A DNA stretch of 64,000 nt, from assembly GCF_947500995.1 (NCBI RefSeq), contig NZ_CANMUA010000003.1, positions 1 through 64,000 on the forward strand, read 5' to 3'. Position numbers and translations under genes: made by a program. Position 1 is the first letter of the stretch. Each line of letters opens with the position of its first letter. Positions 8,688 to 17,270 of the stretch are shown here, in pieces. This DNA comes from an uncultured Serinicoccus sp. (GTDB lineage: Bacteria; Actinomycetota; Actinomycetes; Actinomycetales; Dermatophilaceae). Under the pieces are notes generated by a model. The model was given only the letters and a program-made list of their open reading frames with translations. It had not been told where the DNA came from and did no database searches.

Positions 8688-10676
8688 TCAGCAGGTGGTG
8701 GAGCCGGCGTCCCAGGAGAGGACGCCCGACCCACCGGCGAGCCGGGAGAGGCGGATGTCGAGGGCGTCGTAGACCTCGTCCACCGAGTTCGTGCGGCAGC
8801 CCTTGCGCACCAGCAGCAGCGGGGCGGAGCGGTCGGCCGCCAGCTGGGTGCCGGCCATCGCGTCCACCGCGGCGTCCCCGGCGGCGAGGACCGCCGTGGT
8901 CGACTGCTCGAAGGCGTCCATGGCGATGATCGCGCTCGTCTGGTAGCGGTTGCCGCCGCCGAGCCGTTCGATGCTGGCCTCGGGGAGCAGCCGCTGCGCC
9001 TGCCGGACCACCGACTCGGCGACCGCGCCCGTCCCGCCCAGGACGACGACGCGCGAGGGCGCGAGCTCGGCGAGCCGGGCCGCGGTGACCGGCGGCAGGT
9101 TCGCCGTCCGGGTGAGCAGCATCGGTGCCTCGACGTGGGCGGCGGCCGCGCCGCCACCCAGGGCGTCGGTGAGGTTGCTGCCGCTCGCGAGGTAGACGGT
9201 GCCGCTGTCCCACTCCTGCTCGTAGCTCAGCTGCACCGCGGTGTCGTAGCGGTCCGTGCCCGACACGCGGCGCACGGCGTACCCCTGCCGCTCGAACGCC
9301 CGCCCGACGGCGGGGGTGACGGCCTTCTCGCCGCCGACGAGGACGACCTCCAGGGCGCCCATGTCCTCCAGCACGCCCATCGTGGACGGCGGCACTGCCT
9401 CGGGCCGGGTCAGCAGGACGGCGGCGTGCCCCTTGCTGGCGACCGGGCCGACGCCCAGCGCGTCGGCGATCTCCTGGCCCTGCGTGACGTAGGCCGTGTC
9501 CACGCCGTAGGCGGCGCCCTCGTGGGCGAGACCGGCGGCGACGTCGTACCGGGTGGAGCCACCGATCCGCTGCACCGCGGTGCGGTCCAGGCGCTGCTCG
9601 GCGGCCACCATGGTGCGCAGCGCGCCGAGCATCTGGTACATCTGCCAGCCGGGGCAGCTGGTCGCGTAGACGTCGCGGTGACCGTGCAGCGTGGACAGGG
9701 TGCGGGTCCAGCCGAGGTAGGCGTTGGTGTAGCGCTTCTGCTGGGTCACGTCGACCCCGTGCAGGTTGAGCACCCACCCGGCGGTGCGCGCGAGACCGGC
9801 GAGCTCGGCCTGCGGCACCGGGCTGATCTCGTGGTTGCCGAGCGAGCTGAGGCCGAACCAGTCGTAGTTCATGCCGTAGGAGTGCGCGCCCTGGACGTTG
9901 TTCTCCAGCCCGCCGGAGCGGCCCTCCCAGACCCGCCCGTAGCGGTCGACGATGACGTTGTAGCCCACGTCGCGCCAGTCGAGGGTGTGCGCGTGGTAGC
10001 GGTAGACCGCGCGCAGCATCGCCGGCACGTCCTCGGCGGCGTAGTAGGCGTCGGTCGCGGTGTGGTGCAGGGTGATGCCCATCTTGGCCGAGGGGCGGAT
10101 GGGGCCGGCGCTGGGGATGAGGTCCATGCCCTGGGCCCAGTCCTTGCGCCGGGCGACGACCAGGCCGTCCGGCTCGGCGTCGGGGACCGGCAGCTCGGCC
10201 ACGGTCGCGGCGTCCTGCTCGGTGACGTAGGTGGTCCAGCTCTCGATGCGCGCGTCCGCGGTGTCGCCGGAGAGCTCCACCTGGACCCGGTCGGCGTCGA
10301 GCAGCACGGTGCCCTCGGTGCCCCAGTCGCCCTCGCCGGCGCCCTCCTCGGGGCCGGTGGCGAGACCGTCCTCGAGGGAGGTCCACTCACCCCAGGCGCC
10401 CTCCTGCTCCACCCGCATGCGGGCCCCGCCGTCCTGCGGGCCCGACCAGCGCACCCCCACGACGGTCACGGCCCGCTCGTCGACGTCCAGCGTCCCCCGC
10501 AGGACGTCGGCACCCTCGGCGGACGTGGTCTGCGGCACCGGGTCGAGGGCCACCGAGCGGTGCTGGGGGTCGGCGGGGGACTCGTCGGTGGCGAGGGCGG
10601 TCGGAACGCCGATCCCGGGCACCACCAGGGCCATCGCGGTGAGCGCGGACAGCACGAAGCGACGGGCAGAGGACAT
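8688..10676 (-). CDS. Secreted PGRP-type N-acetylmuramoyl-L-alanine amidase with three cell wall-binding repeats
   Basis: A 662-residue exported protein. A signal peptide (residues 1-30) leads into a beta-rich region and then an amidase/peptidoglycan-recognition domain. Zinc ligands are visible as the histidines of ITLHHTAT, the histidine of LHGHRDVY and the cysteine of YATSCPGW, so an active zinc amidase is predicted. Three cell wall-binding type 2 repeats follow, beginning RIGGSTRY, RVSGTDRY and RLGGGNRY. The mature enzyme should act on stem peptides in the wall. AAGGAG lies seven bases before the ATG at 10676. Direct repeats upstream at 10752-10766 suggest envelope-stress regulation. Confidence 0.9.
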   Translation of the reverse strand: MSSARRFVLSALTAMALVVPGIGVPTALATDESPADPQHRSVALDPVPQTTSAEGADVLRGTLDVDERAVTVVGVRWSGPQDGGARMRVEQEGAWGEWTSLEDGLATGPEEGAGEGDWGTEGTVLLDADRVQVELSGDTADARIESWTTYVTEQDAATVAELPVPDAEPDGLVVARRKDWAQGMDLIPSAGPIRPSAKMGITLHHTATDAYYAAEDVPAMLRAVYRYHAHTLDWRDVGYNVIVDRYGRVWEGRSGGLENNVQGAHSYGMNYDWFGLSSLGNHEISPVPQAELAGLARTAGWVLNLHGVDVTQQKRYTNAYLGWTRTLSTLHGHRDVYATSCPGWQMYQMLGALRTMVAAEQRLDRTAVQRIGGSTRYDVAAGLAHEGAAYGVDTAYVTQGQEIADALGVGPVASKGHAAVLLTRPEAVPPSTMGVLEDMGALEVVLVGGEKAVTPAVGRAFERQGYAVRRVSGTDRYDTAVQLSYEQEWDSGTVYLASGSNLTDALGGGAAAAHVEAPMLLTRTANLPPVTAARLAELAPSRVVVLGGTGAVAESVVRQAQRLLPEASIERLGGGNRYQTSAIIAMDAFEQSTTAVLAAGDAAVDAMAGTQLAADRSAPLLLVRKGCRTNSVDEVYDALDIRLSRLAGGSGVLSWDAGSTTC

Positions 10677-10732
10677 GGCGGATCTCCTTGACCGGAGACG
10701 TCCGGCCGCGGCTGACTGCATCAGAGGGACGC

Positions 10733-10808: not shown

Positions 10809-11372
10809 TTACTGCAGGAACTGCGCCGGGTCGAACTCCGCGATCGGGATGATCCGCAGGCGCGGCAGCGGGGCGTTGAAGGCCCGGGTGTCGTGCTCGA
10901 GGTCGAAGAACTCCATGCCCTGGTGCACGAGCTGCTGGAAGCCGGCGTTGCGGAACTCCTCGAAGGCGATGAGCCCGACGCGGCGGGTGCCGTCGAGGAG
11001 GGGGGACACCGTCTCCAGGAAGTCGCCGTCGTGGCTGACGAGCATGACGTCGTCGGTGCGGGCGTGCAGCGCCTCCAGGGTGCGCTGGATGGCGATGTCG
11101 ACGACCTTCTCCTCGGCCGTCCCGGACAGCGGTACCGGCGTGTAGCCCAGGGCGCGCAGCGCCTGGACGAAGGACATCGGCAGTCCGCTGCTGGCGTTGA
11201 GGAAGAACAGCCCCTTGGCGCCCTGCCCCCACGTCTCCTGCGTGAAGGTGAGCAGGCGGTCCCACCGGGGACGCTCGTCCGGGTGGGGGCGCCGCCCGAG
11301 GATGGAGTTGCCTAGGGTGGCGTCGATGTTCTCCCCGTCGACGAGGAGATAGGTGATGCGGTCAGCGGTCAT
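10809..11372 (-). CDS. NYN-domain ribonuclease-like protein
   Basis: A 187-residue protein of the LabA/DUF88 NYN (PIN-like) family. The acidic metal-binding residues are visible in YLLVDGENID near the N-terminus, EKVVDIAI in the middle, and VSHDGDFLE, matching the usual four-acid pocket. Such proteins are single-domain RNases. It lies 33 bases after the esterase gene on the same strand, so it may be the last member of the ATP-grasp cluster. GAAGG about six bases upstream of the ATG is a moderate ribosome binding site. Confidence 0.83.
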   Translation of the reverse strand: MTADRITYLLVDGENIDATLGNSILGRRPHPDERPRWDRLLTFTQETWGQGAKGLFFLNASSGLPMSFVQALRALGYTPVPLSGTAEEKVVDIAIQRTLEALHARTDDVMLVSHDGDFLETVSPLLDGTRRVGLIAFEEFRNAGFQQLVHQGMEFFDLEHDTRAFNAPLPRLRIIPIAEFDPAQFLQ

Positions 11373-11405
11373 GACGAACCTTCGTCTCTCTTGTTATGTA
11401 TCGAT

Positions 11406-12596
11406 CTATTCGTAGACGAGCTTCTGCGGGCCCGGGAAGATCCACGACAAGCCGTCGCGCAGCCGGTCCCGCCAGTTCTCCCAGGAGTGGCCGTCCCGGG
11501 ACTCGACGTACTGCACCCGCGCCCCGGTGGACTCGAAGACCGGCACCATCGAGCGGTTCGGCACGATGAGCGGCTCGTAGACGCCACAGGTGATGAACAT
11601 CCGCTCGGCCACCCGACGGGGACGCTCGCGGTAGCGGTTCATGAAGGTCACCACGGGGTCGAAGGCCGGCCCGCCGCCGTGGTCGGAGCCGATGTCGGTG
11701 AAGACGAAGGACCCGGACTGCAGGAAGAGGTTGCCCCAGACGCCGGGGTTGCGGGCGGCGGTGGACAACGAGGCGACCGCGCCGAAGCTGGCACCCATGA
11801 GGCAGCGGGCGTCCGAGCGCCGGATGAGCGGCAGCTGCTCCTCCAGGGCCGGCAGCAGCTCGGTCGTGAGGTGGCGCGCGTGCGGGGCGGAGTTGGGGTA
11901 CTCGCGCAGCCGGTCCCCGGGGTTGGTGAAGACGACGACGGTCTCGGCCATGTCGAGGTCGTGGATGAGGTTGTCGAGCACCGTGCGCATGGCGGCGTAG
12001 TCGAGGTAGTCGTCACCGTCGTGCACGACGAGCAGCGGGTAGCGGCTGCTGCGGCGGAACCGCGCCGGGAGGTAGACGCGGGGGTGGGTCGCACGCCGCA
12101 GCGCCGTGCTCTGGACGGTGAGGTCGACGAGCTCGCCGGGCCGGGCGTCCGGCTGCGGCACGACCCACTCGGGGGTCTGGTAGCCGGCGGCCTGGCACAC
12201 GCTCGAGGACCCGACGGGGCTGTGCGCCACGTACGGGTTGAGCGGGTCGTTGAAGGTCTCCACGGCCTCGCCCTGGCGGACCTCGATCTGGTACTCCACC
12301 CGCGACGCCGCCGGCAGCTCGATGGTGACGTACCAGAGCGGGGTGGTGCCCTCGGGCACCTCCAGCCGCTTCATCGGCACGTGCTGCGGCTGGTTGACGA
12401 TGCGGTGCCGCACGGCGACGCCGTCGGCGTGGCCGCGGTAGAGGAAGGTGCACTTCGGCCCCTCCACGATCGGCACCTCGCGCTCGGCCAGGAAGCGCTC
12501 GATGACCTGGTCGTCCAGCCGGCGGGCGCGCAGCGCGTTGATCGCGAGCTTGCCCTTGTGCCGAGGGGGCAGCGGGTATGCCGTCTGCTGGCTCAC
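11406..12596 (-). CDS. Enterochelin esterase-like alpha/beta hydrolase
   Basis: A 396-residue protein with an N-terminal Fes-like beta-sandwich (about residues 30-170) followed by an esterase-D/Fes catalytic domain. The nucleophile elbow is GASFGA, preceded by LLVVHDGDDY, and the catalytic histidine is in RDGHSWENW near the C-terminus. The family hydrolyses esters, including siderophore trilactones, but there is no siderophore biosynthesis gene here. No signal peptide is seen, so it is cytosolic. The GTG at 12596 overlaps the preceding gene by four bases (GTGA). It appears to form one functional unit with the ATP-grasp and S51-like proteins. Confidence 0.82.
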   Translation of the reverse strand: MSQQTAYPLPPRHKGKLAINALRARRLDDQVIERFLAEREVPIVEGPKCTFLYRGHADGVAVRHRIVNQPQHVPMKRLEVPEGTTPLWYVTIELPAASRVEYQIEVRQGEAVETFNDPLNPYVAHSPVGSSSVCQAAGYQTPEWVVPQPDARPGELVDLTVQSTALRRATHPRVYLPARFRRSSRYPLLVVHDGDDYLDYAAMRTVLDNLIHDLDMAETVVVFTNPGDRLREYPNSAPHARHLTTELLPALEEQLPLIRRSDARCLMGASFGAVASLSTAARNPGVWGNLFLQSGSFVFTDIGSDHGGGPAFDPVVTFMNRYRERPRRVAERMFITCGVYEPLIVPNRSMVPVFESTGARVQYVESRDGHSWENWRDRLRDGLSWIFPGPQKLVYE

Positions 12597-13687
12597 GCGT
12601 CCTCCTCCCCCGGGGTGGTGGACGGGTCGGCGGACGTGGCGGCGGTGGAGGGGGCTGCGACGGGCGCGGCATACCTCGTCACCGTGCCGTCGGGTCCGAA
12701 GACCCGGGTGCCCTCGGGCACCCGCCCGTCCGCGGTGAGGGTGACCCGGTCGCCGGGGTCCAGCGGCAGCGCCACCCTCGGCTGGCACCGGTGGGTGAGG
12801 GTGCGCATGCGGTCCGGGTCCTTGATGTCGAGCCGGTCGGTCGCGGAGGGCAGGGCGACCAGGCCGCGGGTCAGACCGAGCCCGTCCATGAGCACCTCGG
12901 CCACCCCGGGGGCCACGACGGAGTCGTCGTAGAACAGCACGACCCGCTCGGTGATCGCCATCGCGCCGGCACCCCAGGCGAGGACCGGGCGGTCGACGCG
13001 GGCGTGGACCCCCCGGGGGTCGCGCGGGTCCGGCACGGCCGTGGCGAGCACCGGGGCGAGGTCGAACATGTGCAGGGTGCCGAGCAGCACGCCGACGTGC
13101 CCGCCGGCGATGACGACGGCCTCGCACTCGCCGACGAGGTGGCCCACCTCGTGCCGGCCCCGCACGACGGGGTCCCGGTGCTGCGGCTCGTGGGTGGCGA
13201 AGAACTCCTCGTTCACCTCGCCGACCCGCTGGACGTGCCGTTCGTCCAGCTCGCGGATGATCTCCAGGACGTCCTCCACGGCCATCCGGTGCACCCGGGC
13301 GTCGCGCGGCTGGTGGCCCCGGATCCGGGTGCAGGCCTCGACCGCCTTCTGGAGGCCGATGAGGTAGAGCTCCTGCATCTCGGTGAGGACCTGCCGACGC
13401 CGCCGGTCGGCGCGCTCCAGCTCGGGGTCCTCCTCCCAGATCTGCTGCATCCGCTGCCACAGGTGGAGGTTGACGCACCGACCGCCGAGCTGGTCCACGA
13501 GCACCGTGTCGTCGCGCTCCCGGTCCCGCCACCCGGCGGTGATGGTCGCCACCCGGGCACCCTCGAGCCCGAGGGAGCGCATGACCTCGTCGACGACGGG
13601 CTCGCGCTGGGGGCCCAGCAGGGTGATCCGGTGGTCGGGCGCCCCGTGGCCGTCCCCGTCGGTGGAGCCCTCAGCGGGCATGGACAT
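12593..13687 (-). CDS. Dipeptidase E/S51-like class I glutaminase-fold protein lacking the nucleophile serine
   Basis: A 364-residue protein resembling the peptidase S51/cyanophycinase superfamily: ITLLGPQ and ATITAGWRDRE at the N-terminus, AVVIAGGHVGVLL in the middle, and the elbow region LAWGAGAMAI. In active S51 enzymes this elbow reads GxSAGA; here the serine position is glycine, so ordinary serine hydrolysis is unlikely. A helical insert of about 110 residues rich in Arg and Glu separates the first strand from the core. It overlaps the ATP-grasp gene by 17 bases (or 11 if the ATG at 13681 is used) and the esterase gene by four. It may be a non-hydrolytic partner of the ligase. Fold assignment is moderate; function unknown. 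Confidence 0.68.
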   Translation of the reverse strand: MSMPAEGSTDGDGHGAPDHRITLLGPQREPVVDEVMRSLGLEGARVATITAGWRDRERDDTVLVDQLGGRCVNLHLWQRMQQIWEEDPELERADRRRRQVLTEMQELYLIGLQKAVEACTRIRGHQPRDARVHRMAVEDVLEIIRELDERHVQRVGEVNEEFFATHEPQHRDPVVRGRHEVGHLVGECEAVVIAGGHVGVLLGTLHMFDLAPVLATAVPDPRDPRGVHARVDRPVLAWGAGAMAITERVVLFYDDSVVAPGVAEVLMDGLGLTRGLVALPSATDRLDIKDPDRMRTLTHRCQPRVALPLDPGDRVTLTADGRVPEGTRVFGPDGTVTRYAAPVAAPSTAATSADPSTTPGEEDA

Positions 13688-14888
13688 GCACCGTGCGCCC
13701 CACGTCGTCGAGCATGTCCCGCAGCACGTCGAAGTCCGGGTGCCGCATCCGGATCCACGCGTTGGCCATGAAGCCGGCCTCGACCGGCTGGGTGCCGGTG
13801 CCCGCGACCGGGACGTGCGCGTCGATGATCCACCGGCCGTAGCGGTTCTCCACGTCCTCCAGCCCGCTGTAGCCGCTGATGACGCCGTCCCGGTCCGGGC
13901 GCAGCGCGACGATGCCCGCGCTGTGGCTGCGGCTGGGGCGCTCGCGCACCTCGCCGTGAACGACGGACTGGGCCCACGCGGCATACACGTCCATGTCGTT
14001 GGCCGCGCAGTAGAGGTCCCAGCACCCGACCCCGGGCGGCCGGCAGCCGATCTCGGAGAAGGTCAGCCCGCGCGGCCCGTGGAACCACTCCATGTGGGTC
14101 GCGGACGTGCCGATCCCCAGCGCCTCGTTGACCCGGTGCCCCATGGCACGGATCTCGTCGTAGAGCCCGCCGTCGTCGATGCGGTTGGTGGCGATGAACT
14201 GCGGGGAGATCCACCGCGAGCGCATCCCCTCCAGCACCCCGGGGAAGTAGTGGCAGGCGAAGTCCAGCTCGATGCGGCCGTCGACGGAGACGGTGTCGTA
14301 GAACCCCTCGTGGCCCTCGATGAACTCCTCGACCGCGATGGAGCTGTAGCGGCCCATCCGCTCCAGCGCCGCGGAGAGCTCGGTGTCGGAGCCCACGCGC
14401 ACCGTGTCCGCGGCGCCGGCGGCGTCCCGGGGCTTGAGGATGAGCGGGTAGCCGACGGCGGCGGCGAAGTCCCACACCTGCGCGGCGTCGTCGGCCCCGG
14501 TGGACCGGGCGGTCGGCACGCCGGCGGCGCGCAGCGCCTCCTTCATCGAGGGCTTGTCGCGGCACAGCCAGGTGGTGCGCACCGAGGTGCCGGGTATGCC
14601 GAGGTCCTCGCGGACCTGGGCGGCCACCATCTGGTGGGACTCGATGGTCGACTCCATCCGGTCCACCCACACCATGCCCTGGACGCGGCGTACGGCGTCG
14701 GTCATCTGGGCCCGGTCGGTCACCGACCCGACCTGCTCGTAGTGGACCATCCAGGACGTCAGCTGGTCGTCCAGGTAGTCCAGCGGGGTCTCGCCGATGC
14801 CGATGACGTTGGCGCCGGCCTCCGCCAGGGCCCGGGCGAACTCGCGCTGGTTCTTCGGGAAGTGCGGCTCCACGAGGACGATGTTCAC
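13671..14888 (-). CDS. ATP-grasp domain ligase
   Basis: A 405-residue ATP-grasp protein of the carboxylate-amine ligase/biotin carboxylase type. The pre-ATP-grasp region starts MNIVLVEPHFPKNQ; the ATP-binding lysine is in YPLILKPRDAAGA; SIAVEEFIEGHEG holds the hinge acids; and FSEIGCRPPG carries the metal-binding Glu with its Asn-like partner region. Such enzymes form amide or peptide-like bonds through acyl phosphates. Start is GTG at 14888. It leads a cluster with 17-base and four-base overlaps to the S51-like and esterase genes, implying joint action on one small molecule. Substrates are unknown. Confidence 0.82.
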   Translation of the reverse strand: MNIVLVEPHFPKNQREFARALAEAGANVIGIGETPLDYLDDQLTSWMVHYEQVGSVTDRAQMTDAVRRVQGMVWVDRMESTIESHQMVAAQVREDLGIPGTSVRTTWLCRDKPSMKEALRAAGVPTARSTGADDAAQVWDFAAAVGYPLILKPRDAAGAADTVRVGSDTELSAALERMGRYSSIAVEEFIEGHEGFYDTVSVDGRIELDFACHYFPGVLEGMRSRWISPQFIATNRIDDGGLYDEIRAMGHRVNEALGIGTSATHMEWFHGPRGLTFSEIGCRPPGVGCWDLYCAANDMDVYAAWAQSVVHGEVRERPSRSHSAGIVALRPDRDGVISGYSGLEDVENRYGRWIIDAHVPVAGTGTQPVEAGFMANAWIRMRHPDFDVLRDMLDDVGRTVHVHAR

Positions 14889-14960: not shown

Positions 14961-17162
14961 TCAGCCGCGGCGGGCGAGCTCGTCGAAGGCACGGGCGACG
15001 ACCCCGGCGTAGACGTGCATCCCGTCGATGTCGGGGTGGACGTTGTCGCTCTGCAGCGTCTCCGGCTGCTGGCTGATCGTCGCGTTCCACTCCCCGACGA
15101 CGGCGTTGGGGTAGTCCGCGACGACCTCGCCGATGGTCTGGTTGGAGGACTCGGTGAAGGAGGCCTGCACGTAGAGGTCCATGACCACGACGTTGCGCTC
15201 CGGTCCGAGCGCGTCCAGCACCGCCCGCAGCGCCTCCTCGTCGACGCCGGCGTTGGTGCCGAGGTGGAGGACGACGTTGTCGCGCACCGTCCCGGCCTCG
15301 ATCGCCTCGTCCACGCGCTGCGTCGCGTCGCCCCACTGGCGGTTGGACTCGGCGACGAAGGCGATGTCCGGGAAGCGGTAGGTCAGGCCGTCGGCGCTGG
15401 TGACGACGAGCGAGTCGCCGATGGCGGTGAGGTCGGACCCGGCAGGCACCAGCAGCCCGTCGGCGTCCTCGCGGAAGGTGCTGCCGTTGACGTCCACCTC
15501 ACCGGGGGAGGGTGCGGCCTCCGCCTCGGTGGTGCCCTCCTCGCCCTCGTCGCCCGGGGCGTCCTCGTCGCTCCCCCCGTCCTCGGCGGTGCCCTCCTCG
15601 GACCGCTCGGCGCCCGCGCCGAGGGCCGCCCCGAGCCCGGTGCCCCGGCGCACGGCCTCGGACGGGCCCTCCTGGGTCGAGGCGGGAGCCGGCGTGCCGT
15701 TGTCGATGCGGGTCTGCGACTGCTCGATCTGCCGCTGGGTCGCGGACTTCTCGGGGGCGGTCACGAGGGCGATGACGGTGGCCAGGAGCAGCAGCACCAG
15801 GCCCGCCGCGACGATGCGCGGGCGCGTGCTGCGGTGCCACCCCTGGGTGAACCAGCCGGCGGCGGCCCGGATGCTGGCCCGGATGCCCCGCCGTCGGACC
15901 GGCACCTCGAGGAACCGCCAGGACAGCTCGGCCAGGACCAGGGTGACGACCAGGGCGCTGAGCAGGACGGCGGTCCCGCGGGCGGTACCGACGGCATACG
16001 GGACGAGCGCCCCGGCGATGACGAGCACCGGCCAGTGCCAGAGGTAGATGCCGTAGGAGCGCTGCCCCAGCCAGGCCAGCGGCCGCAGCGACATGACGCG
16101 CCGCCACGGAGAGGGGGCCTCGAGCAGCCCGGCGACGAGCACGACGGTCGCCAGCGACGCGAGGGCGATGCCACCACGGAAGGTCAGCGCCGAGTCCTCC
16201 CCGGACCAGCGCATGAGGCCGCCCAGGACCAGCAGTGCCGCGATGACCGCGGGACCACGAGCCCGTCGCCAGGTGCGGGTGCGCAGACCGGCCCGGTGCC
16301 CGGGGTCGGCCCAGGCGAGGGCCAGGGCCGCCCCGCCCATGAGCCCCATGAGGTGGGTGTCGGTGCCGTAGTAGACGCGGGTGGCGTCCGCGCCGGTGGT
16401 GACGAGGGTGGCCATGAGCACGGTCGAGGCGAGCCCGAGCAACGCGACCGCTGTCACCCGGTGCCGGGTGGTGGGGGCGAGGGCGAGCAGGACGACCAGC
16501 GCCAGCGGCCACAGGAGGTAGAACTGCTCCTCGACCGCCAGGCTCCAGAAGTTGACGAAGAGGATGGGGCTGGTGCTGTGGAAGTAGCTCGCGCCGGCCG
16601 CGATCTCCAGCCAGTTGCTGGTGAAGGTCAGGGCGCCGATGGTCTGCCGGCCGATGCCGACGAGCAGGTCGCCGCCGACCAGCCGGGCGGTGGCGACGCT
16701 GACCAGCACGACCACGGCCAGCGGGGGCAGCAGCCGGCGCGCCCGTCGGCGCCAGAAGGTCGGGAGGTCGACCCGTCCGCGGTGGTCGACCTCGCGCAGC
16801 AGCAGGGTGGTGATGAGGAAGCCGCTGACGACGAAGAAGACGTCGACCCCGAGGAACCCGCCGGGCAGGGCCGTCGGGACGAAGTGGAAGGTCAGGACCG
16901 CGAGGATGGCGATGGCCCGCAGGCCGTCCAGGCCCGGGATGTGGCCGGGTCGCGGGTCGACGTCGCGGGGGCCGCGACCTCCCCGGCGCGGGGGCCGTCG
17001 CGGGGCGGGGGTGGCCTCGAGCACGGCGCCCGGTGCCGCGGTGTGCCGCGGGGGCAGGGACGCCCGGGTGCGGTGCTCACCGGGGTCGACCAGGGCCCGC
17101 TCACCGCCGGGGGTGGCGCCGCGGTCCTCCGCGGGGGTCGGGGACGAGGCGGGCAGAGACAT
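14961..17162 (-). CDS. OatA-like membrane O-acyltransferase with SGNH domain
   Basis: A 733-residue protein. Residues 1-75 are a basic cytoplasmic tail; an acyltransferase-3 domain with about ten membrane helices follows (GLDGLRAIAILAVLTFHF with the catalytic His, FFVVSGFLI, FWSLAVEEQFYLLWP). After an acidic linker rich in Glu, Asp and Gly, the extracellular SGNH domain shows AIGDSLVV (Ser) and SDNVHPD (Asp/His). OatA-type enzymes acetylate cell wall or extracellular glycans. The ATG at 17162 is chosen because AAGGAGG lies 11 bases upstream; the GTG at 17174 would abut that site. It is monocistronic. Confidence 0.88.
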   Translation of the reverse strand: MSLPASSPTPAEDRGATPGGERALVDPGEHRTRASLPPRHTAAPGAVLEATPAPRRPPRRGGRGPRDVDPRPGHIPGLDGLRAIAILAVLTFHFVPTALPGGFLGVDVFFVVSGFLITTLLLREVDHRGRVDLPTFWRRRARRLLPPLAVVVLVSVATARLVGGDLLVGIGRQTIGALTFTSNWLEIAAGASYFHSTSPILFVNFWSLAVEEQFYLLWPLALVVLLALAPTTRHRVTAVALLGLASTVLMATLVTTGADATRVYYGTDTHLMGLMGGAALALAWADPGHRAGLRTRTWRRARGPAVIAALLVLGGLMRWSGEDSALTFRGGIALASLATVVLVAGLLEAPSPWRRVMSLRPLAWLGQRSYGIYLWHWPVLVIAGALVPYAVGTARGTAVLLSALVVTLVLAELSWRFLEVPVRRRGIRASIRAAAGWFTQGWHRSTRPRIVAAGLVLLLLATVIALVTAPEKSATQRQIEQSQTRIDNGTPAPASTQEGPSEAVRRGTGLGAALGAGAERSEEGTAEDGGSDEDAPGDEGEEGTTEAEAAPSPGEVDVNGSTFREDADGLLVPAGSDLTAIGDSLVVTSADGLTYRFPDIAFVAESNRQWGDATQRVDEAIEAGTVRDNVVLHLGTNAGVDEEALRAVLDALGPERNVVVMDLYVQASFTESSNQTIGEVVADYPNAVVGEWNATISQQPETLQSDNVHPDIDGMHVYAGVVARAFDELARRG

Positions 17163-17270
17163 CTGCCGTGCCACCTCCTTCGTCGACCGACCCGGGAACC
17201 GCTGGCGACCAATCTAGGCGCGCCGTCGGCGCAGGTCGGGGAGGTGGAGGGTGTGTCGCCGGACGTGCGA

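Follow-up and report, generated by a model that had tools for sequence, protein, structure and literature searches.

An ATP-grasp ligase, an S51-like protein and a Fes-like esterase form a co-inherited gene set with linkage to glycogen genes in relatives and lost active-site residues in Serinicoccus

In an uncultured Serinicoccus sp. (GCF_947500995.1) three overlapping genes, coding for an ATP-grasp ligase (ATPgA), an S51-like protein (S51L) and an esterase (EST1), form a unit which we tentatively read, with a probability of about 0.4, as the local remnant of an ATP-grasp/esterase/S51 system tied to alpha-glucan (glycogen) metabolism, in which S51L would be non-cutting in this clade. The content and order of the genes, their co-inheritance, the glycogen linkage in relatives and the loss of Ser and His with dN/dS well below 1 are read from the sequences themselves.

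Results

The window, that is the whole stretch of 64,000 nt that was analysed (contig NZ_CANMUA010000003.1), carries the cluster at positions 10,809-14,888 (Table 1). The preliminary description of this DNA had placed four minus-strand genes here, and all four coordinates were verified, as were an overlap of 4 bases between S51L and EST1 and a gap of 33 bases between EST1 and the NYN gene. The overlap of 17 bases given for ATPgA and S51L holds if S51L starts at its first in-frame ATG, but it shrinks to 11 bases from the second, at 13681; as the latter is present in 9/9 of the compared relatives with Gly at the nucleophile elbow (the Gly clade) and the former in some only, start-codon conservation makes the overlap of 11 bases more likely.

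Table 1. Features of the cluster in the window
Feature	Coordinates	Strand	Details
ATPgA, ATP-grasp ligase, L-amino-acid-ligase-like	13671..14888	-	405 aa; PF02222 E 1.6e-6
S51L, S51-like protein	12593..13687	-	364 aa counted from first ATG; pLDDT 90.4 model
Gly239 codon GGT, nucleophile-elbow position	12971..12973	-	codon mapping and alignment
Ser281 codon TCC, catalytic-His position	12845..12847	-	codon mapping and alignments
EST1, Fes/CE1-like two-domain esterase	11406..12596	-	396 aa; PF00756 E 1.2e-19; GASFG elbow and DGH motif retained
NYN-domain protein, not counted in system	10809..11372	-	187 aa; PF01936 E 7.1e-7

That ligase, S51-like protein and esterase make up a real conserved unit, as had been proposed, is borne out by comparison of gene sets within the window's family, where the identical 27/59 genomes carry all three, which appears to be more than chance in a count that, like those of glycogen linkage below, ignores the relatedness of the genomes. 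The trio was found in the window and in 30/32 fetched loci, the two without it (L050 and L051) being marginal matches. Gene order, as judged by tblastn, has EST1 after S51L, both on one strand, in all of the best 80 of 333 contig-search relatives; ATPgA lies on the opposite strand in L049. These best 80 of 333 loci contain ATPgA in 72 cases, ATPgB in 35, ATPgC in 29, RimKD in 31 and a second esterase, EST2, in 39; one of the 72 ATPgA (L082) is a weak partial match only, and its genome, G459, has S51L and EST1 and no ATPgA at E <= 1e-30. The full set in relatives comprises up to four ATP-grasp ligases (A, B, C and the RimK-like D) and two esterases, so that the gene set first described was right about the trio and missed these further members as well as the link to glycogen genes. 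RimKD, the fourth ligase, which in the window's family lies at a separate locus, is present in 27/27 cassette genomes versus 10/32 others. The gene set also occurs in MAGs of Eisenbacteria and Gammaproteobacteria.

Some candidate partners were rejected. The NYN gene, initially taken as a cluster member, adjoins the cluster only in the Gly clade and in G024, and is elsewhere distant or not found. It neighbours the cluster directly in the window, in L020 and L022, and in nine loci among the best 80 of 333 (L053, L058, L073, L077, L078, L087, L090, L091 and L094; L090 and L020 are one genome), is separated from it by about 3 kb in L024 and by about 6 kb in L064, and gave no match in the remaining mapped loci; we regard it as a clade-limited neighbour. 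The best PADLOC match on the cluster (E 0.036) was to this NYN protein. A GCS2-like ligase was discarded as a fixed partner, being present in 53/59 genomes regardless of the cassette and beside the cluster in 6/111 loci. Plasmid carriage was likewise dismissed, with no S51L match in the plasmid collection and 190 records matched by the ATPgA query, all at less than 60% identity.

The ATP-grasp domain of the window ATPgA scores above the Pfam cut-off, and the family profile finds as its best PDB sequence match the L-amino acid ligase 4wd3 (E 2.9e-24); as a CphA-type synthetase the protein reaches 33.8 bits in cya_phycin_syn against a cut-off of 850. EST1 consists of an N-terminal domain (PF11806, below cut-off in the window protein) and an esterase domain with a GxSxG motif, and residues S270, D368 and H370 are invariant in 16 aligned members. 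Its profile matches Fes (2b20, E 1e-20) and the CBM48-CE1 enzyme 7b5v (E 2.9e-12).

A PDB fold search with the window S51L model gave S51 proteins throughout its first 15 matches, including one "pseudo-CphB", and the match to dipeptidase E and cyanophycinase has a probability of 1.00. At the sequence level PF03575 is unmatched in the window S51L at E <= 1, the NYN, EST1 and ATPgA proteins all being above their Pfam cut-offs; the same model is matched by 26/31 members of the S51L alignment A1 at E <= 0.01. The elbow sequence LAWGAGAMAI was verified, and residue 239 in it is Gly. The earlier account of the active site had recognised this loss of Ser and overlooked the changed catalytic-His position, now Ser281, so that both residues are absent from the window protein. 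Residues were mapped onto the known enzymes by motifs and a sub-significant HMM alignment (E 0.19) rather than by superposed coordinates. Asp310, a candidate for the third (Glu/Asp) residue of the triad, is nearly invariant in alignment A1, and its spacing from the His position resembles that in MccG and Orf2, a likeness of spacing and not of mapped coordinates. The long helical insert reported for S51L does occur in the model, as helices 88-124 and 130-166, but is not peculiar to the window; all 31 aligned homologues contain this region, which makes it a trait of the family.

Loss of Ser as a property of the system, as had been implied, is not supported, with Ser retained in 96/111 homologue rows (nine of which are duplicates) and the Ser and His pair in 79/111. 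Ser-retaining homologues outside the cluster had been named as an observation that would speak against the original proposal; such homologues exist, but within the same cassette. In the S51L tree, built without nine duplicate genomes and with L050 and L051 dropped from the family alignment, the Gly proteins of Serinicoccus, Ornithinimicrobium and Ornithinicoccus form one clade (support 100/99) nested in a His-less clade (99/96), which places the change at the catalytic-His position first and that of Ser afterwards.

Linkage to glycogen genes was found in relatives in Planctomycetota, Myxococcota, Acidobacteriota and Actinomycetota. Among the best 80 of 333 loci GlgA is present in 8 and GlgC in 5, and L049, counted in addition to these, has both as tblastn matches; the GlgA proteins scanned (L097, L085 and L104) match GlgA models and the GlgC proteins scanned (L079, L098, L122, L131 and L049) match glucose-1-phosphate adenylyltransferase models. 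GlgA near an ATP-grasp gene was seen in only 14/34 non-Actinomycetota genomes, and neither GlgA nor GlgC lies beside the trio in any of the 46 loci among the best 80 of 333 that are Actinomycetota by their record titles. At separate ATPgA loci, GlgA adjoins ATPgA or lies within 1.5 kb of it in 6/8 cases versus 0/20 control regions, the latter having been taken at round-number positions of G451, G452 and G461 and not at random. Four of these GlgA genes were found in the gaps of G451, G452, G454 and G456, as had been informally expected before the regions were fetched, and the other two beside ATPgA in G453 and G455; the four of the six which were scanned all exceed the TIGR02095 cut-off. The 10 other regions of the 16 usable fetched ones are without GlgA, including two with ATPgA paralogues and also the regions of G457 and G458.

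Within the window's family the linkage is found at the RimKD locus. At 30 such loci, 29 of them with RimKD, Pgm was found in 19, GlgB in 17 and maltokinase in 14, compared with none of the three at 26 trio loci of the family. Ten of the 29 RimKD loci are without all three genes, although some of the contigs end nearby (G000, G047, G016, G056, G017, G045, G028, G026, G015 and G039). The 29 loci derive from 37 RimKD genomes, with eight omitted, including G006, for which another contig was used in its place as L204. GlgB is present in 27/28 RimKD genomes versus 171/368 others. In the 64 kb of the window, queries for GlgA, GlgB, GlgC, GlgX, MalQ, Pgm and maltokinase were all unmatched at E <= 1e-5, none of the glycogen queries matched in the 19 kb around the RimKD locus of the window genome (L175), and no ADP-glucose-type GlgA above cut-off was found in that genome, which has a GlgB elsewhere. 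By these sequence criteria the system is linked to glycogen genes in relatives and not in the window genome.

Discussion

We infer that the system makes and removes an amino-acyl or peptidyl adduct in alpha-glucan metabolism. ATPgA would convert an amino acid or a short peptide at its carboxylate to an acyl phosphate and couple it to an acceptor with an amine or hydroxyl group; together with ligases B, C and D it would assemble a short adduct of aminoacyl or peptidyl type, either on an alpha-glucan or ADP-glucose-derived acceptor or out of one. The Fes/CE1-like esterases would remove the adduct by ester hydrolysis, and in most lineages S51L would be a hydrolase of the Ser-His kind, trimming the peptide portion or recycling it. 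Amides are the usual products of ATP-grasp enzymes, and that the product here is an ester is assumed from the presence of the esterases. The widest form of this proposal, an undescribed pathway in several phyla which decorates glycogen or an ADP-glucose-derived alpha-glucan with amino acids or peptides by up to four ATP-grasp enzymes and removes them by two esterases and S51, the latter a non-catalytic subunit in Serinicoccus and its relatives, is speculative and in our view rather unlikely.

A serious competitor, which itself falls somewhat short of even odds, is that the ligases make a free dipeptide or peptide-like metabolite (an osmolyte, a signal or a storage compound, with a logic like that of cyanophycin) which S51 and the esterases recycle, the glycogen genes being neighbours that serve as a co-reserve or are co-induced. 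The closeness of the ATPgA profile to L-amino acid ligases favours it, as do the position of the window cassette away from glycogen genes and the known substrates of S51 enzymes, which according to PMC9239234 include Asp-X dipeptides and cyanophycin. On the other hand, two loci of the system lie in two glycogen contexts, GlgA/GlgC in other phyla and GlgB/Pgm/maltokinase in the window's family, and a pure peptide would leave the two esterases unexplained. It is very improbable that EST1 instead frees a catechol or hydroxy-acid ester built with the ligases, in a siderophore-like metabolism: although Fes is both the best profile match of EST1 and the best by TM-score (0.69-0.70), the top match by Foldseek E-value is the feruloyl esterase 8bf3, CBM48-CE1 enzymes rank beside Fes in the fold search, and the partner genes identified are ligases, esterases and glycogen genes.

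For the S51L of Serinicoccus, Ornithinimicrobium and Ornithinicoccus we propose a non-cutting role as a ligand-binding protein or a complex partner of ligase and esterase. Low dN/dS and the retention of conserved residues suggest a pseudoenzyme that has been maintained, which fits the earlier suggestion that S51L binds rather than cuts: dN/dS is 0.21-0.35 in four Gly pairs versus 0.08-0.39 in eight Ser and His pairs, and the residue is unchanged in the Gly clade at 39/45 conserved columns. Mere decay of a functionless gene could be argued from S51L being the least conserved of the trio between genomes, from the absence of both catalytic residues and from a dN/dS of 0.65 in one wider pair (the window and L077), for which the values of other genes are also raised (0.27-0.39). 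We consider it improbable, given that the eight remaining pairs of the Gly clade have values of 0.18-0.35, inside the range of the Ser and His proteins, that the reading frame stays open over 304-364 codons at each of the ten Gly-clade loci used, and that among 59 family genomes there is not one case of S51L being lost where ATPgA and EST1 are kept. Hydrolysis by another route is scarcely better placed; the site does look chemically flexible in the family, with Cys and Gln in L104 and L127 and Thr and His in L129 and L130, but the Gly clade is without both Ser and His, and changing either residue to Ala abolishes the activity of known S51 enzymes according to PMC9239234 and PMC11078827.

Several known systems share parts of this design. 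With S51 peptidases (dipeptidase E, CphB and MccG) S51L has the fold in common and, in most homologues, a WSAGAM-type elbow and PHAxxRL; it differs from them in an insert of about 80 residues forming two helices, in conserved LGPQR and GWxxRE motifs, in its pairing with a Fes/CE1-like esterase (80/80 in the best 80 of 333) and in the clade of the window having neither Ser nor His. The solved sequences closest to ATPgA are L-amino acid ligases (4wd3, 3vot BL00235 and BacD), whereas here up to three paralogues and a RimK-like ligase accompany S51 and two esterases, with glycogen genes nearby in relatives. EST1 shares its two-domain architecture and catalytic motifs with Fes and the CBM48-CE1 feruloyl and acetyl-xylan esterases, but its genomic context consists of ligases and glycogen genes. 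The cyanophycin system (CphA and the S51 enzyme CphB) follows a common logic of ATP-grasp synthesis and then S51 turnover, but the 405 aa of ATPgA compare with 879-929 aa in the cyanophycin synthases of the PDB, and we know of no counterpart of GlgA/GlgC or of the esterases in that system. The predicted amidoligase operons described by Iyer and colleagues in 2009 are said to bring together peptidases, hydrolases and several ATP-grasp ligases. By titles and the opening lines of abstracts, none of the papers among the search matches listed, including those on ATP-grasp enzymes with glycogen, describes the present set, although Iyer et al. (2009) may include it.

If the glycogen reading is true, the glycogen of many bacteria would not be a plain glucose polymer, or would have a peptide-type partner. 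To our knowledge nobody has looked for such a partner, and the co-inherited enzyme set allows the reading to be tested directly by genetic means. One clade, in which first His and then Ser was lost with the gene kept under selection, may provide a natural series leading from a hydrolase to a binding protein.

Gene Cluster and Identity of the S51-Like Protein

Gene mapping and translation of the window confirmed the four gene positions reported in the preliminary description (see the table). Pfam matches above cut-off were obtained for the ATP-grasp ligase ATPgA (PF02222), the esterase EST1 (PF00756), and the NYN protein (PF01936), while the Pfam scan of the S51-like protein (S51L) gave no credible match. 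The S51-like identity proposed for this protein is upheld by profile matches of its homologues, 26 of the 31 aligned reaching Peptidase_S51 at E <= 0.01, and by a fold search with an AlphaFold2 model (mean pLDDT 90.4), the first 15 PDB matches of which were all S51 proteins (dipeptidase E, cyanophycinase, and pseudo-CphB; probability 1.00), with modest TM-scores by query of 0.35-0.42. Glycine is indeed present at the elbow (WGAGAM, Gly239, codon 12971-12973). The overlap of ATPgA and S51L spans the 17 bases previously noted if the upstream ATG is used, and 11 bases if translation starts at an ATG six bases further in, which is present in 9/9 Gly-clade relatives compared. In S51L of the window and its congener, about 16 additional residues form a loop a short way ahead of the elbow strand; none of the remaining 29 aligned rows has it.

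Locations of the cassette, its neighbors, and related genes in other loci
Feature	Location	Strand	Remarks
Acyltransferase-3 protein, large	window 14961-17174	minus	PF01757; directly upstream of ATPgA; SGNH-like C-terminus, judged by eye
ATPgA	window 14888-13671	minus	
S51L	window 13687-12593	minus	
EST1	window 12596-11406	minus	
NYN-domain gene	window 11372-10809	minus	
Amidase-like secreted protein, cell-wall-binding-type repeats	window 8688-10721	minus	downstream of NYN; translation judged by eye
Further S51 protein, window genome	G000:C3:194194-194802		above PF03575 cut-off, E 1.1e-12
ATPgB-ATPgC pair, congener	G047:C11:342698-345079 (L150)		separate pair
Protein similar to the GCS2 ligase of L057	L104 12194-14227		directly after EST2; fused to CBS domains
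Protein similar to the GCS2 ligase of L057	L080 12193-14085		directly after EST2
Nannocystis pusilla esterase	L106 8948-10076		split into two segments, by a change of frame or an error in the assembly

Distribution of the Cassette

Matches to S51L were found in 28 of the 59 genomes searched in the window's family and in seven of 396 searched in its phylum, one in each set being marginal (G005 and G171). At high score, ATPgA (268 bits or more), EST1 (477 bits or more), and S51L occur in the identical 27 family genomes, the other 32 being without them. All three genes were present in 30 of the 32 loci fetched around S51L matches; L050 and L051, where the trio is not complete, derive from marginal matches, and in L049 ATPgA lies on the opposite strand. 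The neighborhood comparison proposed earlier showed the ATPgA-S51L-EST1 linkage to be kept. A wider scan of one genome per species (84,980 species), using an alignment of 21 homologues and two short patterns, identified at least 333 S51L relatives, the nearest to the window, also by the tree, being those of Serinicoccus species. In all of the best 80 of these 333, EST1 follows S51L on the same strand; going by record titles, they include Actinomycetota (46), Myxococcota (16), Planctomycetota (7), Acidobacteriota (3), Eisenbacteria (3), Deltaproteobacteria (2), one Riflebacteria, and one Gammaproteobacteria.

Mapping of queries over 111 loci showed that the trio belongs to a larger gene set. 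ATPgA was detected in 72 of the 80 best-relative loci (one of these, L082, by a weak partial match), the further ATP-grasp ligases ATPgB and ATPgC in 35 and 29, the RimK-like RimKD in 31, and the second esterase EST2 in 39; RimKD matches the ATP-grasp family PF07478 weakly (E 6e-4 and 1.2e-5). For the nine genomes whose S51L locus holds no complete ATPgA, whole-genome searches located the gene elsewhere in eight, which also carry further ATP-grasps at 31-44% identity, and found none at E <= 1e-30 in G459, the source of L082. The window genome showed no ATPgB-ATPgC pair. RimKD is present in 37 of the 59 family genomes, comprising 27/27 cassette genomes and 10 others, often in a second locus shared with a TPR-type gene (thioredoxin-like by eye) and with EST2-like and Fes-like paralogues.

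Loss of Catalytic Residues in S51L

The loss of serine in the window is not general among homologues: of 111 S51L rows (31 plus 80, nine duplicate genomes included), 96 have Ser at the nucleophile position, 11 have Gly, two Thr, and two Cys, and 81 keep the His of the PHAxxRL motif. These two positions probably represent the catalytic Ser and His, judging by the motifs, by an HMM alignment (E 0.19, not significant) in which WSAGAM falls at the elbow of Deinococcus peptidase E and PHA at that enzyme's own PHA, and by the triads given in PMC9239234 and PMC11078827 (PepE S120-H157-E192, MccG S133-H168-D196, Orf2 S134-H170-D198). A tree of 102 rows places the Gly rows in a single clade of 10 (support 100/99), nested together with 11 rows having Ser but no His in a clade of 21 (99/96), the sister of which, L029 (Segeticoccus), has both residues; four further Ser-but-no-His rows are placed elsewhere. 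On this tree, given the nesting and the intact sister, loss of His precedes that of Ser, which occurs a single time, on the branch leading to Serinicoccus, Ornithinimicrobium, and Ornithinicoccus. The pair is altered differently in other S51L of Myxococcota and relatives (Cys and Gln in L104 and L127, Thr and His in L129 and L130).

Pairwise dN/dS of S51L (Nei-Gojobori method) ranged from 0.21 to 0.35 among four Gly pairs, from 0.16 to 0.27 among three pairs with Ser but no His, and from 0.08 to 0.39 among eight pairs with both residues; in another comparison, eight Gly-clade pairs gave 0.18-0.35. The wider pair of the window and L077 gave 0.65, the other three genes being raised too (0.27-0.39). 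Across the 79 Ser-and-His rows, 45 columns are conserved at 93% or more; the Gly clade keeps the commonest residue in 39 of them, the changed columns being 62, 111, 239, 259, 281, and 301, and LGPQR, GWxxRE, GG, W-AGAM, D254, E264, P280, R285, and R300 are kept in 11/11 Gly rows. To judge by these sequence patterns, the S51L of this clade looks like a maintained pseudoenzyme. Inactive S51 members are already known, since several clade II proteins are stated in the MccG paper (PMC9239234) to be without peptidase activity, and a pseudo-CphB is a PDB entry.

Linkage to Glycogen Metabolism Genes

Inside the cluster, GlgA-type genes were found in eight and GlgC-type genes in five of the 80 loci, and L049, from the window's phylum, matched both. 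On NCBIfam scanning, the GlgA of L097, L085, and L104 and the GlgC of L079, L098, L122, L131, and L049 matched their models, the last four lying above the TIGR02091 cut-off and L079 just below its cut-offs (397 bits vs. 425 for TIGR02091; 534.7 vs. 537 for NF002772). At separate ATPgA loci GlgA was adjoining or at most 1.5 kb away in six of eight genomes (G451-G456; four of the six were scanned, all above the TIGR02095 cut-off), and was not found near ATPgA in G457, where the contig ends, or G458. Neither GlgA nor any cassette gene was present in 20 control regions, each 18 kb long, taken from three genomes (6/8 vs. 0/20, Fisher p 7e-5, kinship uncorrected). GlgA was absent from the other usable fetched regions, two with ATPgA paralogues and six with ATPgB or ATPgC. 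Near ATPgA or ATPgC, it occurs in at least 14 of 34 non-Actinomycetota genomes, a lower bound as many contigs end.

Within the window's family 30 second loci were fetched, with RimKD detected in 29 (from 29 of the 37 RimKD genomes). Phosphoglucomutase was present in 19 of the 30, GlgB in 17, and maltokinase in 14, against none of these in 26 trio loci of the same family, a contrast somewhat flattered by the shorter trio loci (about 13 kb vs. 18 kb). Reference genes scanned above cut-off with TIGR01515 (E 2.7e-265) and TIGR01132 (E 1.8e-275), and the maltokinase reference below that of TIGR02457 (E 6e-44). Among 396 Actinomycetota genomes GlgB was found in 27/28 with RimKD vs. 171/368 others, kinship uncorrected. 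No glycogen gene was present at the RimKD loci of G016, G056, G017, G045, G028, G026, G015, and G039, nor beside RimKD in the window genome (L175) and its congener (L176), and glycogen queries had no match within the 64-kb window. In the window genome GlgB is present, but no GlgA of the ADP-glucose type passes the cut-off. Glycogen linkage is a trait of the wider system and, because the window and the RimKD locus of its genome are without glycogen genes, extends to the window only by argument.

Proposed Function

A literature search on ATP-grasp with glgA found no paper on both, and other searches found none describing this gene set, judged by title and start of abstract and partly among first-listed matches. 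One likely prior source for the gene set is Iyer et al. 2009. The parts belong to known families; within the limits of these searches, the way they are combined and their association with glycogen seem novel.

L-amino acid ligases are the nearest match for ATPgA, among them 4wd3 (E 2.9e-24), 3vot, and BacD. EST1 is a two-domain esterase, best matched by Fes in profile and TM-score and by feruloyl esterase in Foldseek E-value, with CBM48-CE1 esterases alongside; in an alignment of 16 members its Ser270, Asp368, and His370 do not vary. The combination of ligases, esterases, an S51 hydrolase, and linkage to alpha-glucan genes agrees most closely with an adduct, aminoacyl or peptidyl, tied to alpha-glucan, where we infer the adduct, its acceptor, and the ester bond. 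The ligases would make this acyl adduct, the esterases would take it off, and the S51 hydrolase would cut Asp-type peptides. In the window's clade S51L may instead bind without cutting, plausibly in a complex with its neighbors.
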